Origin: a virus
Direction: 5' to 3' (one strand)
Length of the DNA stretch: 22,375 nucleotides
Virus record (IMG/VR): IMGVR_UViG_3300048433_000186
Coordinates: 1 to 22,375 of that record
Made by a program: the position numbers and the translations under genes. The notes beneath the pieces were generated by a model that saw nothing but the letters and a program-made list of their open reading frames with translations, did no database searches and was not told the DNA's origin. Below are positions 206 through 7,388 of the stretch, in pieces (position 1 is the first letter of the stretch; each line of letters opens with the position of its first letter).

Positions 206-361
206 ATGAATTTCAAATGGGATTTAAAATCATTGTTTAAGAAAAAACAACAAGAGATTTCTAAAAAGGCTCAATTGAGAGAAAGAAGTAAACAATCTTT
301 AGCTAGACCTAAAGCAAAATCAAATATTACTTCTAAAGATCCAAGATTGCAGAATATCTAA
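206..361 (+). CDS. Small basic protein, 51 aa, function unknown
   Basis: This ORF of 52 codons has a very strong Shine-Dalgarno sequence (AAGGAGGG at 194-201) just before its ATG, which is good evidence that it is translated. The protein begins MNFKWDLKSLFKKKQQ and is rich in Lys, Arg and Ser with few acidic residues. It has no membrane segment. Its stop codon at 359-361 runs into the A-rich arm of the terminator shared with the opposing operon. I do not recognise the family. A basic protein of this size could bind nucleic acid or be a minor virion component, but nothing in the sequence decides this. Confidence 0.65.
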   Translation: MNFKWDLKSLFKKKQQEISKKAQLRERSKQSLARPKAKSNITSKDPRLQNI

Positions 362-395
362 AAATAAAAACCCCCTAGTATTATCTACTAGGGGG
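361..395 (-). terminator. Strong intrinsic terminator for the minus-strand operon
   Basis: A perfect 10-bp inverted repeat (CCCCCTAGTA at 371-380, TACTAGGGGG at 386-395) with a 5-base loop is followed on the minus strand by a U-rich tract (tttttatttt, 370 down to 361). It sits 22 bases past the end of the last minus-strand gene, as expected for the end of the early operon. Read on the + strand the hairpin is followed by AAACAACAAC, so it should terminate poorly in that direction. It lies between two convergent genes. Confidence 0.88.
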
Positions 396-417
396 AAACA
401 ACAACAAAAAGGAACTG

Positions 418-681
418 TTATCTTGTATATACGGCGAAAGTATCAGCCATATCCATGTGTATAAAAGATTGAGGTCTATCATAACCAGGTTTTGATTTAC
501 CTCTATATCTGTATCTCACATTCATAGCATTTTTAGATGCCGAAATTTCTTTAAAATATTTTAAATACTTAATTGGTATATTATAGGCTATACAAGGGCC
601 TTTGTATTTAAAAGGGTCGACCATATATTTTGATAATAATGGCATTACAACTTTGTCAAAAACTTTTTTTCTTCTATTCAT
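418..681 (-). CDS. Hypothetical early protein, 87 aa
   Basis: This is the last gene of the minus-strand operon. An in-frame ATG exists at 717, but the better start is at 681: AGGAG (691-687) sits 5 bases before it, while the 717 start would put 28 bases inside the upstream gene without a visible ribosome site. The protein starts MNRRKKVFDKVVMPLLSK and is basic. Its second half contains YRYRGKSKPGYDRPQSF, rich in Arg, Tyr and Lys, and it ends with a DMADTFAVYTR tail. No catalytic motif, membrane segment or signal peptide is visible and I do not recognise the family. Its position in an early operon suggests a role in host takeover or metabolism rather than in the virion. Confidence 0.75.
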   Translation of the reverse strand: MNRRKKVFDKVVMPLLSKYMVDPFKYKGPCIAYNIPIKYLKYFKEISASKNAMNVRYRYRGKSKPGYDRPQSFIHMDMADTFAVYTR

Positions 682-686
682 AGTAT

Positions 687-691
687 CTCCT
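687..691 (-). promoter_or_regulatory. Ribosome binding site that decides the start at 681
   Basis: AGGAG on the minus strand lies 5 bases upstream of the ATG at 681-679 and overlaps the TAG stop (692-690) of the preceding gene. It supports the internal start over the upstream ATG at 717 and suggests translational coupling between the two genes. Confidence 0.75.
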
Positions 692-1052
692 ATCTTAAAT
701 ATAATGGACCAGTCCATTGAATTGCATAATTACCAGAAAGTACATTACCTCTTGGTGAGTTTAAAGCAGGTGCATTGTAGCCAGCAGCTTTCAATATATC
801 ACCTTTTTTAAAGTGTTTAAAATCTTCTTTTACAATAAAAGCAAATACACCGGTGTCTTGCACAATCTTAATGTACTTTTTACCTTGTGATACTTTTGTT
901 TTATTATCCCAATTGTCAACTTGTTCTTTACAGTAACCAGTTAACTCTTTATCGCCGTGGGTAGACCATCTTTTATAATCTTCTTTAGCGCCTGCCATCA
1001 TATTAGCTACGCCTTGTTCTAGTGTGTTTGCTGTTTGTTCAACTTTTATCAT
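690..1052 (-). CDS. Hypothetical early protein, 120 aa, conserved-looking C-terminal domain
   Basis: The start at 1052 is supported by AGAAGGA 8-10 bases upstream and by an almost ideal sigma70-type promoter at 1091-1119. Residues 1-55 are polar and helical. Residues about 58-120 form a compact domain with a KKYIKIV strand, a VFAFIVK strand, a FKKGDILKAAGYNAPA segment, then SPRGNVLSG and a WTGPLYLR end. From memory, small proteins with this K-K-Y-I-K-I ... GD-LKAA-W/Y-APA ... RGN pattern are common, uncharacterised proteins in marine T4-like phages. No enzyme motif is seen. Its stop overlaps the ribosome site of the next gene, so the two are co-expressed. Confidence 0.8.
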   Translation of the reverse strand: MIKVEQTANTLEQGVANMMAGAKEDYKRWSTHGDKELTGYCKEQVDNWDNKTKVSQGKKYIKIVQDTGVFAFIVKEDFKHFKKGDILKAAGYNAPALNSPRGNVLSGNYAIQWTGPLYLR

Positions 1053-1056
1053 AGTG

Positions 1057-1236
1057 TTATTGTCCTTCTTTGTTCATTGTTAATACGGTAAGTATACCAC
1101 AAATTAGCATGATTGTCAAGCAAATAAAAAACATTGTCCAGTTTTCATTTCCCATACAATGACCGCCACAATCCTCAATTGAACCGACAGCTAATATGGC
1201 AGATAATATAGTAGATATTGAAAAAAATGTAGTCAT
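1057..1236 (-). CDS. Small membrane protein, 59 aa, two predicted TM segments
   Basis: The ATG at 1236-1234 overlaps the stop of the upstream gene (TAATG), and the ORF runs 60 codons to the TAA at 1059-1057, 4 bases before the next start. The protein begins MTTFFSISTILSAILAVGS (a hydrophobic stretch at residues 4-20). It then has a short loop with two Cys and one His (EDCGGHC, residues 21-27) and a second hydrophobic stretch at about residues 34-54 (MFFICLTIMLICGILTVL). It ends in MNKEGQ. The second Cys-containing membrane stretch and the -35/-10 promoter for the next gene share the same DNA. Its early-operon position and two-TM design could fit a superinfection-exclusion or membrane-remodelling protein. 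A holin is less likely in an early operon. The function is not known. Confidence 0.65.
   Translation of the reverse strand: MTTFFSISTILSAILAVGSIEDCGGHCMGNENWTMFFICLTIMLICGILTVLTMNKEGQ
1091..1119 (-). promoter_or_regulatory. Sigma70-like early promoter P1
   Basis: On the minus strand TTGACA (1119-1114) is followed after exactly 17 bases by TATACT (1096-1091), close to the bacterial consensus. The predicted start point near 1084 leaves about 32 bases of leader before the ATG at 1052, including AGAAGGA. It lies inside the end of the 59-aa membrane protein gene, so it gives the last two genes extra expression. Confidence 0.85.
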
Positions 1237-1430
1237 TAAGCATTACCCATTTCTATATCAAGTATTTCATCAATATTCCATTCGTCAATATCAATCAAGT
1301 CAAGGTTATCAACTTGCATGATTTTTGCTTTAGCAGCTTCTTTGCTAATAGATTGGTTTTTAAGTTCAAGTAATATTGCGTCAACAGCTTTTTCAGCTAA
1401 ATCCCAATAGTAGTTTTTTGTTTTAGACAT
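1236..1430 (-). CDS. Small acidic early protein, 64 aa
   Basis: The start at 1430 has AAAGGAG 9 bases upstream and the promoter P2 at 1463-1491 gives it a leader of roughly 26 bases. The N-terminal half (MSKTKNYYWDLAEKAVDAIL) looks helical. Residues about 40-62 are strikingly acidic (NLDLIDIDEWNIDEILDIEM). Acidic small phage proteins made early often mimic DNA or bind host enzymes, but that is only an analogy here. The stop overlaps the next ATG by one base (TAATG), suggesting coupled translation. Confidence 0.75.
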   Translation of the reverse strand: MSKTKNYYWDLAEKAVDAILLELKNQSISKEAAKAKIMQVDNLDLIDIDEWNIDEILDIEMGNA

Positions 1431-1551
1431 AGTGTTGTTCTCCTTTGTTGTTTGTTAATAATAGTATATCAAAGATTTGTAGCAGAGTCAAGCAATTTCT
1501 TTGCTTAGCTTCTAAAATTCTTTGTTTTAGTGTTTTTTTATCTTTTTTCAT
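1423..1551 (-). CDS. Possible 42-aa basic leader ORF (leaderless)
   Basis: An ORF of 43 codons starts at 1551, only about five bases downstream of the predicted start point of promoter P3, and ends at 1423, overlapping the next gene by 8 bases out of frame. It encodes a Lys/Arg-rich start (MKKDKKTLKQRILEAKQR) followed by a hydrophobic LTLLQIFDILLL segment. There is no room for a Shine-Dalgarno site, so it would have to be translated from a leaderless message. Promoter P2 and the next gene's ribosome site lie inside it. It could be a real small protein, a leader peptide, or chance. Confidence 0.3.
   Translation of the reverse strand: MKKDKKTLKQRILEAKQRNCLTLLQIFDILLLTNNKGEQHYV
1463..1491 (-). 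promoter_or_regulatory. Sigma70-like early promoter P2
   Basis: TTGACT (1491-1486) and TATACT (1468-1463) on the minus strand are separated by exactly 17 bases. The predicted start point is near 1456, which gives a short leader with AAAGGAG before the ATG at 1430. The -35 context (TTGCTTGAC) and the leader end (AACACTATG) match those of P1, so the two look like copies of one cassette. Confidence 0.83.
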
Positions 1552-1562
1552 AATATACATAT

Positions 1563-1591
1563 ACTATACACTAAATATAAGCAATAGTCAA
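1563..1591 (-). promoter_or_regulatory. Sigma70-like early promoter P3
   Basis: TTGACT (1591-1586) and TATAGT (1568-1563) on the minus strand are again 17 bases apart, with the same TTGCTTGAC context as P1 and P2. It is the most upstream promoter of the minus-strand operon. The predicted start point, near 1556, is just before the ATG of the possible 42-aa ORF. Confidence 0.78.
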
Positions 1592-1812: not shown

Positions 1813-1820
1813 TATAAATA
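1813..1820 (+). promoter_or_regulatory. T4-type late promoter box (TATAAATA)
   Basis: TATAAATA immediately follows the TAG of the 1642 gene. In T4 this box spans -13 to -6 and is read by the gp55 sigma factor with the gp45 clamp. By that geometry transcription would start near 1826, only about 3 bases before the ATG at 1829. It probably drives 1829-2517. Confidence 0.8.
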
Positions 1821-4826: not shown

Positions 4827-7388
4827 ATGGCGAAGTTTACTAAAAAAATATCCAAGTTAATAGGAGGCCAAACTCCTGATTTCGTACTTGCAGATCATCC
4901 TAAATTTGTAGAGTTTTTAAGATCATACTACACATTTATGGAATCAGCAGAGTTGTTGGTAACAAGTGTACAGACAACTGAAGGTATTTTATTAGAAACA
5001 GAAACAAACCAAAATAACGAATTACTTTTAGAAGGTACAAAATTATCAACTGACGGTCAAACACAAATTGACGAAAATGATAAAGTATTATTAGAAAGTT
5101 CTGTATATGGTAAATTTACAGTAGGCGAAACTATTACAGGTTCTACATCTGGTGCAACGGCAACTATATTAGCTGAAGACTTAGATAATGGTAGACTTTT
5201 TATTTCAGCACAAGATAAATTTAAAGACGGTGAAACTATAACAGGTAATTCATCAGCTGCTTCTGCTACGTTAAATGATTACAGACCAAATCCAGTTCAA
5301 AATATCCAAGACTTAGTAAACTTTAGAGATCCAGATAAAGTTATATCTAACTTCTTAACAAAATTTAGAAATGAGTTCTTAAATACTTTACCTGAAACTT
5401 TAGATAATAATGTAGATAAAAGAAAACTAATTAAAAATATCAAATCAGTTTACAGAGCAAAAGGTACTGCTAGAGGACATGAATTATTTTTTAAACTATT
5501 ATTTAATTTAGGATCAGAAACAATTTATCCTAGAGAACAAATGTTAAAAACTTCAGACGGTAAGTTTGATACTAAAAAAATTATAAGAGCGATTGGTACT
5601 GAGGGCGAAACTTTAAAATTAGTTGGTCGTACAGTTACAGGTCAAACATCTCAGGCAACTGCTATAATTGAAAACGTATTTAAATTTCAAATAGGTGCAA
5701 ATACAATATCTGAATTTATTTTAAATGATGATAGTATTTCTGGTAGTTTTGCAATAGGAGAAGAAATTAGAGGTACTGAAAATGATGATATTGATACTTT
5801 TATCAAAGCTAACATAACAGGTATTCCAACTTCACCAACAATTTCAAATGACGGTGCGTTACATTCTCCACAAGAATCAATTGCTGTAATAGGTGGCGGT
5901 CAAGGTGCAATCATGCAAGTTGAAGCTGTTGGTTCTGGTGGTATAACAGATTTCATTATTGATAACGCAGGTACAGGTTATTCAATAGGTGATGATTTAG
6001 TTTTTAATAATACAGATACAGGTGGTGGTTCTGCTGTTGCAAAAGTTTCAGTTGTCAACGGTGGTTTTACACAAGAAGAATCCACATCAACTGTTGACGA
6101 TCATATAGTTTTAGAAGATGAAACCGTAAGAGGTGATATGTACACAGGTAATAAAGTTGTACAAGAAAACGGCAACGGTGATATTACAGATATAAGAATT
6201 ATTAATAGTGGTAGTGGTTACAGTTCATTACCAACAATTGCAGTTACAGGTGGATCAAATGCAAGTGTATTTTGTTTTGGTGATGAAATTGGTAAAGTAC
6301 AGGCAATTAAAGTAATTGAAACTGGTGCTGAATATCAAAATTCTCCTTCGCCACCTACAGTATCTATGAGAACACACATTGTTTTAGGAAATGTATCAGG
6401 TGGTTTTTTAGCAAACGAAACTGTAACTTCGGTTGATAGTGCAAGTTCAACTATTACAGCTACAGTTGCAAGTTTTAATGGCAGTACAAATGTTTTAACT
6501 TTATCAAGTGCTACAGGTACTTTTGATGAAGATAGAGAATTAACTTCAAGTGGCGGTGGTACTGGTATAATTAAAAAAGTAGATTCTGCTACAGCGACAA
6601 CTACAGTTGCTAGTGTTATTGATACAGACGGTACATATATTAATCAGGATGGTTTTATTTCAGAAACTACAATGAAAGTACAAGACAGTTTATATTACCA
6701 AGATTTTTCATACGTTATCAAAGTTGGTCGTACAATTAATGACTGGAGAGATTCATTTAAAAAGACAATGCATACAGGTGGTTTTTACTTTACAGGTCTT
6801 GTAAACATATCAACACAGGTAGACGCACAAATTCAAAGTATAACAGGTTTAAATTCTGGTGCTACTGGTACACCAATCAAAGATGTATTGAATACACTAT
6901 ACTCTAAACTTTTAGGTAGAAGATTAGGAACAACAGACGGTGGCACATCATTAGCTTCAAATCCAGAATTAGCAATAGATGTAGAAGCAGGCGATAGTGT
7001 TATCGCTTCATTAGGTGCAAATGAGAGAGATGTAACTTTATCACGTCACATGATAATTCGACAACAATCAAAAGCATTATCTACACATAGAGAAAATACA
7101 ACTAAATTTGGTCTTGCAGTTGCAGGTCCGAGAATGAAATCAATAGATAAGTACGTTTTAGGTCTTAACATGGGTAGTCAAGTTAGATTAGATCAGATAC
7201 AAGCAATTCGTATGGAAAGTCTTAAAAATACTTCACTATATAATATAGTACCAACTTTTGATGATTTTAACACAGATATAAAAATTAACTTTGCAATATC
7301 AACTGAAATTGGTGAGATAGATAGTAACTCATTTGATGAAACAAATATTACATTTGACCAGTCGAATTTGAAATTTGATGTCGCATAG
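4827..7388 (+). CDS. 7: Large baseplate wedge protein, gp7 position
   Basis: This 853-residue protein lies between gp6 and gp8, where T4 has gp7 (1032 aa). Conserved parts are the N-terminus (TPDFVLADHPKFVEFLRSYY, residues 16-35), a helical block at about 164-240 (VNFRDPDKVISNFL, then YRAKGTARGHELFFKLLF), and YYQDFSYVIK ... FKKTMHTGGFYFTG at about 623-657. The middle (about 95-610) is beta-rich and repetitive, with GETITGSTSGATAT-type units and GTGYSIGDD / GSGYSSLPT units. The identification with gp7 rests on position and on the pattern in marine T4-like phages rather than on clear similarity to T4 gp7. It could instead be described as a wedge-associated structural protein. Confidence 0.75.
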   Translation: MAKFTKKISKLIGGQTPDFVLADHPKFVEFLRSYYTFMESAELLVTSVQTTEGILLETETNQNNELLLEGTKLSTDGQTQIDENDKVLLESSVYGKFTVGETITGSTSGATATILAEDLDNGRLFISAQDKFKDGETITGNSSAASATLNDYRPNPVQNIQDLVNFRDPDKVISNFLTKFRNEFLNTLPETLDNNVDKRKLIKNIKSVYRAKGTARGHELFFKLLFNLGSETIYPREQMLKTSDGKFDTKKIIRAIGTEGETLKLVGRTVTGQTSQATAIIENVFKFQIGANTISEFILNDDSISGSFAIGEEIRGTENDDIDTFIKANITGIPTSPTISNDGALHSPQESIAVIGGGQGAIMQVEAVGSGGITDFIIDNAGTGYSIGDDLVFNNTDTGGGSAVAKVSVVNGGFTQEESTSTVDDHIVLEDETVRGDMYTGNKVVQENGNGDITDIRIINSGSGYSSLPTIAVTGGSNASVFCFGDEIGKVQAIKVIETGAEYQNSPSPPTVSMRTHIVLGNVSGGFLANETVTSVDSASSTITATVASFNGSTNVLTLSSATGTFDEDRELTSSGGGTGIIKKVDSATATTTVASVIDTDGTYINQDGFISETTMKVQDSLYYQDFSYVIKVGRTINDWRDSFKKTMHTGGFYFTGLVNISTQVDAQIQSITGLNSGATGTPIKDVLNTLYSKLLGRRLGTTDGGTSLASNPELAIDVEAGDSVIASLGANERDVTLSRHMIIRQQSKALSTHRENTTKFGLAVAGPRMKSIDKYVLGLNMGSQVRLDQIQAIRMESLKNTSLYNIVPTFDDFNTDIKINFAISTEIGEIDSNSFDETNITFDQSNLKFDVA

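Follow-up and report, generated by a model that had tools for sequence, protein, structure and literature searches.

Promoter early stem-loop cassettes (PeSLs) of T4-type phages have been described as host-like early promoters in plastic regions (PMC4503421, citing Arbiol 2010, Comeau 2014). Plasticity has also been described among structural genes: a plastic region splits the baseplate module in some cyanomyophages (PMC7029224), and g15-g18 is a hyperplastic region (PMC2984593). The late motif given for cyanomyoviruses in the latter paper is NATAAATA, and the prediction of middle and late promoters was reported to have failed in pelagimyophages (PMC7029224). Mosig and other pelagimyophages have glutamine riboswitches, which were discussed together with tmRNA (PMC9004378). 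A transcriptome of pelagimyophage infection was not found in the literature; PMC12753301 covers HTVC022P and HTVC027P, without mention of HTVC008M.

The stretch of DNA analyzed here, called the window, is a virus record of 22,375 bases from a pelagimyophage, a T4-like phage of SAR11, which are the most abundant bacteria in the ocean. The closest isolate is Pelagibacter phage Mosig EXVC030M, with 82% identity across 24% of the first 3.6 kb of the window, and no other near match was found among isolate phages. The plus-strand genes of the window include PAAR, gp25, baseplate-J, gp9/10, and a gp8-like gene. A block of minus-strand genes at 361-1591 is flanked on both sides by plus-strand late baseplate genes (Table 1). 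An earlier note on this DNA described the block as a self-contained early-type operon inserted into the late structural cluster. We conclude instead, with a probability of about 75%, that pelagimyophages keep a standing slot for early genes at this place upstream of the PAAR/gp25 genes, running antisense inside the late baseplate cluster. The first plus-strand gene to the right of the block (1642-1812) encodes a small lipoprotein-like product (hydrophobic start, TISC) and is present in 52 of 104 loci.

Table 1. Features of the minus-strand block and of its right flank (positions in the window)
Feature	Position	Strand	Description
Gene A	418..681	-	87 aa, basic, pI 10.0; conserved IPxKYL...RYRG...ADTFAIY
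Gene B	690..1052	-	120 aa, basic; distant relative of DUF7717 / PHROG 5014 and 818
Gene C	1057..1236	-	59 aa; two hydrophobic segments flanking a conserved IEDCxGxCxGxENW loop
Gene D	1236..1430	-	64 aa, acidic, pI 4.2; accessory, 8/72 loci
ORF E	1423..1560	-	45 aa (42 aa if ATG 1551); doubtful gene, overlaps P2
Promoter P1	1591-1563	-	TTGACT-N17-TATAGT; operon start
Promoter P2	1491-1463	-	TTGACT-N17-TATACT; within ORF E, ahead of D
Promoter P3	1119-1091	-	TTGACA-N17-TATACT; within gene C coding sequence, predicted to drive B and A
Intrinsic terminator	395-371	-	10-bp stem, 6 GC, then TTTTTATTTT; -18.4 kcal/mol, z -4.1
T4-type late promoter motif TATAAATA	1813..1820	+	precedes the plus-strand genes to the right of the slot

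The raw minus-strand ORF calls were 418-717, 690-1052, 1057-1236, 1236-1430, and 1423-1560. The start of gene A was moved from 717 to the ATG at 681, which is preceded by AGGAG, because the added N-terminal codons lie over the end of B in another reading frame and the relatives begin at MNRR. With A starting at 681 and B stopping at 690, these two genes do not overlap. The overlapping starts and stops noted earlier are real for C and D, which share one base (TAATG at 1236-1238), and for D and E (1423-1430), but not for A and B. The tBLASTn-based gene A set had picked up some C-termini of B by way of the false upstream start, and these were taken out before the set was aligned and used for structure prediction. 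Values of pN/pS were 0.31 for B, 0.45 for C, 0.47 for A, and 0.62 for D, indicating selection at the protein level, with purifying selection on A, B, and C and weaker selection on D. Four small genes and one possible gene had been proposed for the block. The four stand, with the corrected start of A, but ORF E is doubtful since its codon score is negative, the predicted start point of P1 lies only about 5 nt ahead of its ATG at 1551, and its conservation coincides in large part with promoter P2. Matches to ORF E were limited to a few close relatives.

The three sigma70-like promoters that had been proposed were upheld by a strict motif, TTGAC-N18-TATNNT, which occurs three times in the 1.2-kb block against about 0.01 expected there (0.18 per strand in 22 kb), an excess of about 300-fold. 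Strictness of the motif matters because a loose sigma70 consensus scan of 3.6 kb showed no excess, with 24 matches found and 20.1 +/- 4.6 expected. The loose scan was discarded as evidence, as its count is within chance. In the slots of 104 loci, 43 strict promoters were found on the minus strand (many of them homologous copies and thus not independent, with 32 distinct sequences) and five on the plus strand, compared to 1.8 in shuffles. The downstream structural DNA of 104 loci contained five on the minus strand and one on the plus strand, with 3.6 expected. The proposed terminator was also confirmed. It is oriented in the minus direction only, with no U-tract in the plus direction, and it is the sole minus-strand terminator of the block, located at the operon end. 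A search for strict terminators was positive in only 6 of 69 slots of relatives and in none of the shuffles; the terminator is not kept beyond close relatives, and a terminator universal to the slot was ruled out.

The late motif shows the opposite distribution. TATAAATA, which is the T4 late motif, occurs seven times on the plus strand of the window and never on the minus strand, with 1.8 expected per strand. In the 1.5 kb upstream of gp25, 104 loci together have 145 copies on the plus strand and none on the minus strand, with about 16 expected. The flanking baseplate genes carry this motif, in agreement with the earlier statement that the block sits among plus-strand late genes. Two marks of a T4-type early unit were found: host-like sigma70 promoters, and a late motif on the opposite strand only. 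Promoter class thus gives good support to an early-type operon that runs antisense to late genes and has promoters and a terminator of its own, and the same class suggests that transcription of the slot would be early. Since the two promoter classes split cleanly by strand here, TTGAC-N17-TATANT could be used as a definition of early promoters in SAR11 viruses.

The main new point of this analysis concerns promoter P3. Residues 40-41 are Leu-Thr in 45 of 77 distinct C genes, and this pair is encoded as TTG-ACA in every one of the 45. These genes form 14 clusters below 85% identity; TTGACA is present in every cluster, and TATANT at the 17-nt spacing is also kept in 13 of them. Where a residue other than Thr comes after Leu 40, which precludes a -35 element, TTG is used in only one of nine genes. 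The share of TTG is similarly small among the other leucines of C (6/108, ~6%) and among the leucines of the structural genes in the window (13/260). Invariant TTG-ACA in the Leu-Thr genes, compared to a single TTG among the nine without Thr, indicates that P3 is under DNA-level selection for a promoter. P3 would be a clear, testable example of a regulatory element held in coding sequence by synonymous-site selection. The embedded promoter stands before B in some loci and before a gene of family F9 in others. In Mosig, Val-Ala replaces Leu-Thr in C, and the TTGACA element is absent. About half of the C gene clusters have no embedded promoter, meaning that it is not essential to the slot.

To sample relatives through gp25, 33 distinct loci with at least 2.2 kb upstream of this gene were used. 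Minus-strand genes occupy the slot in 32 of the 33. Gene A was found in 19 of these slots, B in 14, a detectable C in five, and any of the three in 21; the locus maps come from our own ORF caller, making counts of single small genes approximate. Homologues that were fetched independently lie in the slot, antisense to the gp25 cluster, in 175/177 cases for A, 211/212 for B, and 144/147 for C, although these counts are not all independent because some contigs were fetched repeatedly. B was found at the slot across lineages down to about 48% identity, and D and E were confined to few relatives. The orders C-B-A, C-F9-B, C-B-F9-A, and C-F36-B were all observed. Minus-strand genes are present at the slot in the isolates Mosig and HTVC008M, and A, B, and C were not found there in Melnitz and S-PM2. 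The earlier note had suggested comparing the same location in related phages, and would have taken identical genes there in all relatives as a refutation. By that comparison, the near-constant occupancy and the ties of A, B, and C to the site argue against an insertion, and the mixture of common families with variable genes means that neither an entirely core set nor an accessory insert fits. These comparisons support a permanent slot whose cargo is partly swapped among relatives around the B, C, and A families.

A few loci depart from the usual arrangement. In L112, gene A occurs twice in one slot, at 5684-5980 and 6377-6670, flanking B. A C homologue is located outside the slot in L308, L313, and L317; in L317, the one of the three that was examined, it lies amid auxiliary genes and is without the TTGACA element. 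Two MAG contigs with the bacterial titles Deltaproteobacteria and Rickettsiales (L176 and L177) contain this phage region, including gp25, B, C, and A, and appear to be phage DNA that ended up in bacterial genome bins. A host origin of C was considered and found to be unsupported, as these contigs with the same phage region are its only two matches in bacterial genomes.

The slots of relatives contain two other types of cargo. Genes for tRNA-Arg, Leu, Pro, or His are located at the distal end of the slot, on the early strand, in 24 loci (including L001, L007, L088, L095, L101, L116, and L157); the window has no tRNA gene. In about ten loci (L110, L114, L124, L326-L331, and L347), a gene for a sigma70 region-4-only protein of 139-172 aa lies immediately upstream of C. 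Sigma70 region 4 makes up the C-terminal 80 residues of this protein (Pfam E 2.2e-16 for one family member), the best PDB match is an RpoD (E 2.1e-30), and the N-terminus is unrelated. Similar region-4-only proteins are found elsewhere in other marine phages (L332-L345). In one locus without a gp25 match (L354), a B-like gene and a sigma70 region-4-only gene share a strand and lie about 3 kb apart.

The window's B scored 21.6 bits against DUF7717 (PF24835), below the Pfam cut-off of 27, and all 39 members of the B family match this domain, with a best E of 7.5e-08. The alignment spans residues 41-96 with Pfam and 48-120 with PHROG, where the related families are 5014, 818, and 3274. Weak relatives of B were found in small-gene arrays of cyanophages. 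No informative match to A, C, D, or E was present in Pfam, PHROGs, PADLOC, or NCBIfam, and comparison of A through E to the PADLOC models gave no defence match and nothing better than E 0.045. AlphaFold models reached pLDDT 86 and pTM 0.74 for A, and pLDDT 86 and pTM 0.80 for B, with mean pLDDT of 61-73 in the other four of the five B models. Foldseek returned no PDB match with E<=0.001 for either model; the best viral match to the A model was an uncharacterised phage protein (E 0.055). In C, hydropathy peaks above 2 in two segments, and the conserved loop has two cysteines. Host takeover, as proposed earlier, is our best inference for the role of the slot, favored by the tRNA and sigma-region-4 cargo of relatives. 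It is drawn from context, since A, B, C, and D have no known function, fold, or defence match.

A glutamine riboswitch (RF01739) is located next to the block, at 124-183 on the plus strand, with 49.1 bits against a cut-off of 35. It precedes a 51-aa basic ORF (206-361, plus strand) that converges on the minus-strand block. A core-pattern search found the riboswitch in 17 of 63 relative loci, on the plus strand every time. In 16 riboswitch loci, the next called gene is 19-29 nt away and encodes one of two small basic proteins, which are apparently unrelated to each other. The idea that these proteins are glutamine-synthetase inactivating factors received no support from Pfam or NCBIfam. One elaborate reading, which we regard as very unlikely, combines the riboswitch with the operon and makes the slot a takeover and switching locus, with early nested transcripts from promoters in coding genes and a later antisense shut-off paced by cellular glutamine. 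Takeover proteins would be supplied early, joined in some relatives by a sigma70 region-4 decoy. Plus-strand transcription through the riboswitch and the gene at 206-361 would then meet no plus-strand terminator, and this readthrough, antisense to the whole early operon, would shut the operon off in step with cellular glutamine.

The best explanation, a standing early-gene slot, can be put as a series of steps. Early in infection, host RNA polymerase with the housekeeping sigma factor would read the minus strand from P1, P2, and P3, and the nested transcripts would stop at the terminator; the sequence evidence for both is strong. Gene C, a putative membrane protein, would carry the promoter and, in its tail, the ribosome site for the next gene, which is also strongly indicated. 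With P3 embedded in C, the distal genes B and A would receive strong transcription of their own even when the upstream cargo changes. The slot itself would be permanent, with a cargo that is rearranged from one relative to the next around the B, C, and A families, as the locus comparisons support. Its products may be small proteins made early to prepare the cell for phage growth: C would be located in the inner membrane and B and A would be basic and soluble, with tRNAs and the region-4-only protein added in relatives. Later, judging from the motifs, the late sigma system of the phage would read the plus strand only, from TATAAATA.

Other explanations were weighed against this slot. If the minus-strand genes were late or constitutive, the promoter matches would be chance occurrences in AT-rich DNA, as the unremarkable loose scan might suggest. 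The strict motif, however, is far in excess in the block, strand-biased in relatives, and kept at synonymous sites, and the minus strand near gp25 is free of TATAAATA, which makes chance extremely improbable. A recent accessory island, acquired as a single cassette in this phage lineage, would account for the full set of transcription signals packed into 1.2 kb, for the narrow distribution of D and E, and for Melnitz and S-PM2. This explanation is largely refuted by slot occupancy and by A, B, and C being bound to the site and almost never found elsewhere, including the most divergent B genes, and we give it a slim chance.

Two alternatives concern function rather than the slot as such. The operon could mainly provide translation or metabolic support to a large AT-rich phage instead of attacking the host or its defences. 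The tRNA genes at the distal end of so many slots and the lack of PADLOC matches for A through E agree with such a role, but the window itself has no tRNA and the region-4 protein of some relatives points to transcription control, so we hold this to be possible but not the likelier role. Another possible explanation is that the product of gene C acts in superinfection exclusion as T4 Imm does, blocking DNA entry by a second phage. T4 Imm, which confers superinfection immunity, is a small membrane protein that is made early and has two hydrophobic segments. The size of C, its hydrophobic segments, its two-cysteine loop, and its early-type promoters are all compatible with this function. Membrane hairpins are common among phages, however, and C matches no family above the cut-off in Pfam, PHROG, or NCBIfam, which leaves an Imm-type role doubtful. 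Under the standing-slot explanation, the A, B, and C families are concrete candidates for early functions in hosts that are difficult to manipulate. Should host-takeover genes generally reside in the slot, new anti-host proteins could be sought there across marine T4-like phages.

The closest comparison is to the slot of Mosig (Mosig_00112 to 00114 plus tRNA-Pro, Arg, and Leu), which is in the same place upstream of PAAR/gp25 and on the minus strand. Its B and C are 77% and 69% identical to those of the window, whereas D and E are missing, A has no match, and three tRNAs are at the distal end. Gene C is like T4 Imm in being a small protein with two predicted membrane segments and early-type promoters, and unlike it in having a conserved CxxxC loop. 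PeSLs, as outlined in PMC4503421, share with the slot early promoters in a plastic region next to exchangeable small genes. In contrast to PeSLs so outlined, P2 and P3 are inside coding sequence and there is no stem-loop joined to each promoter. In their passages on plastic regions, PMC7029224 and PMC2984593 make no mention of an antisense early operon that is fixed upstream of gp25 and bears B, C, and A families bound to the locus. What the regions of cyanomyophages and pelagimyophages described there have in common with the slot is the placement of variable genes between structural genes.
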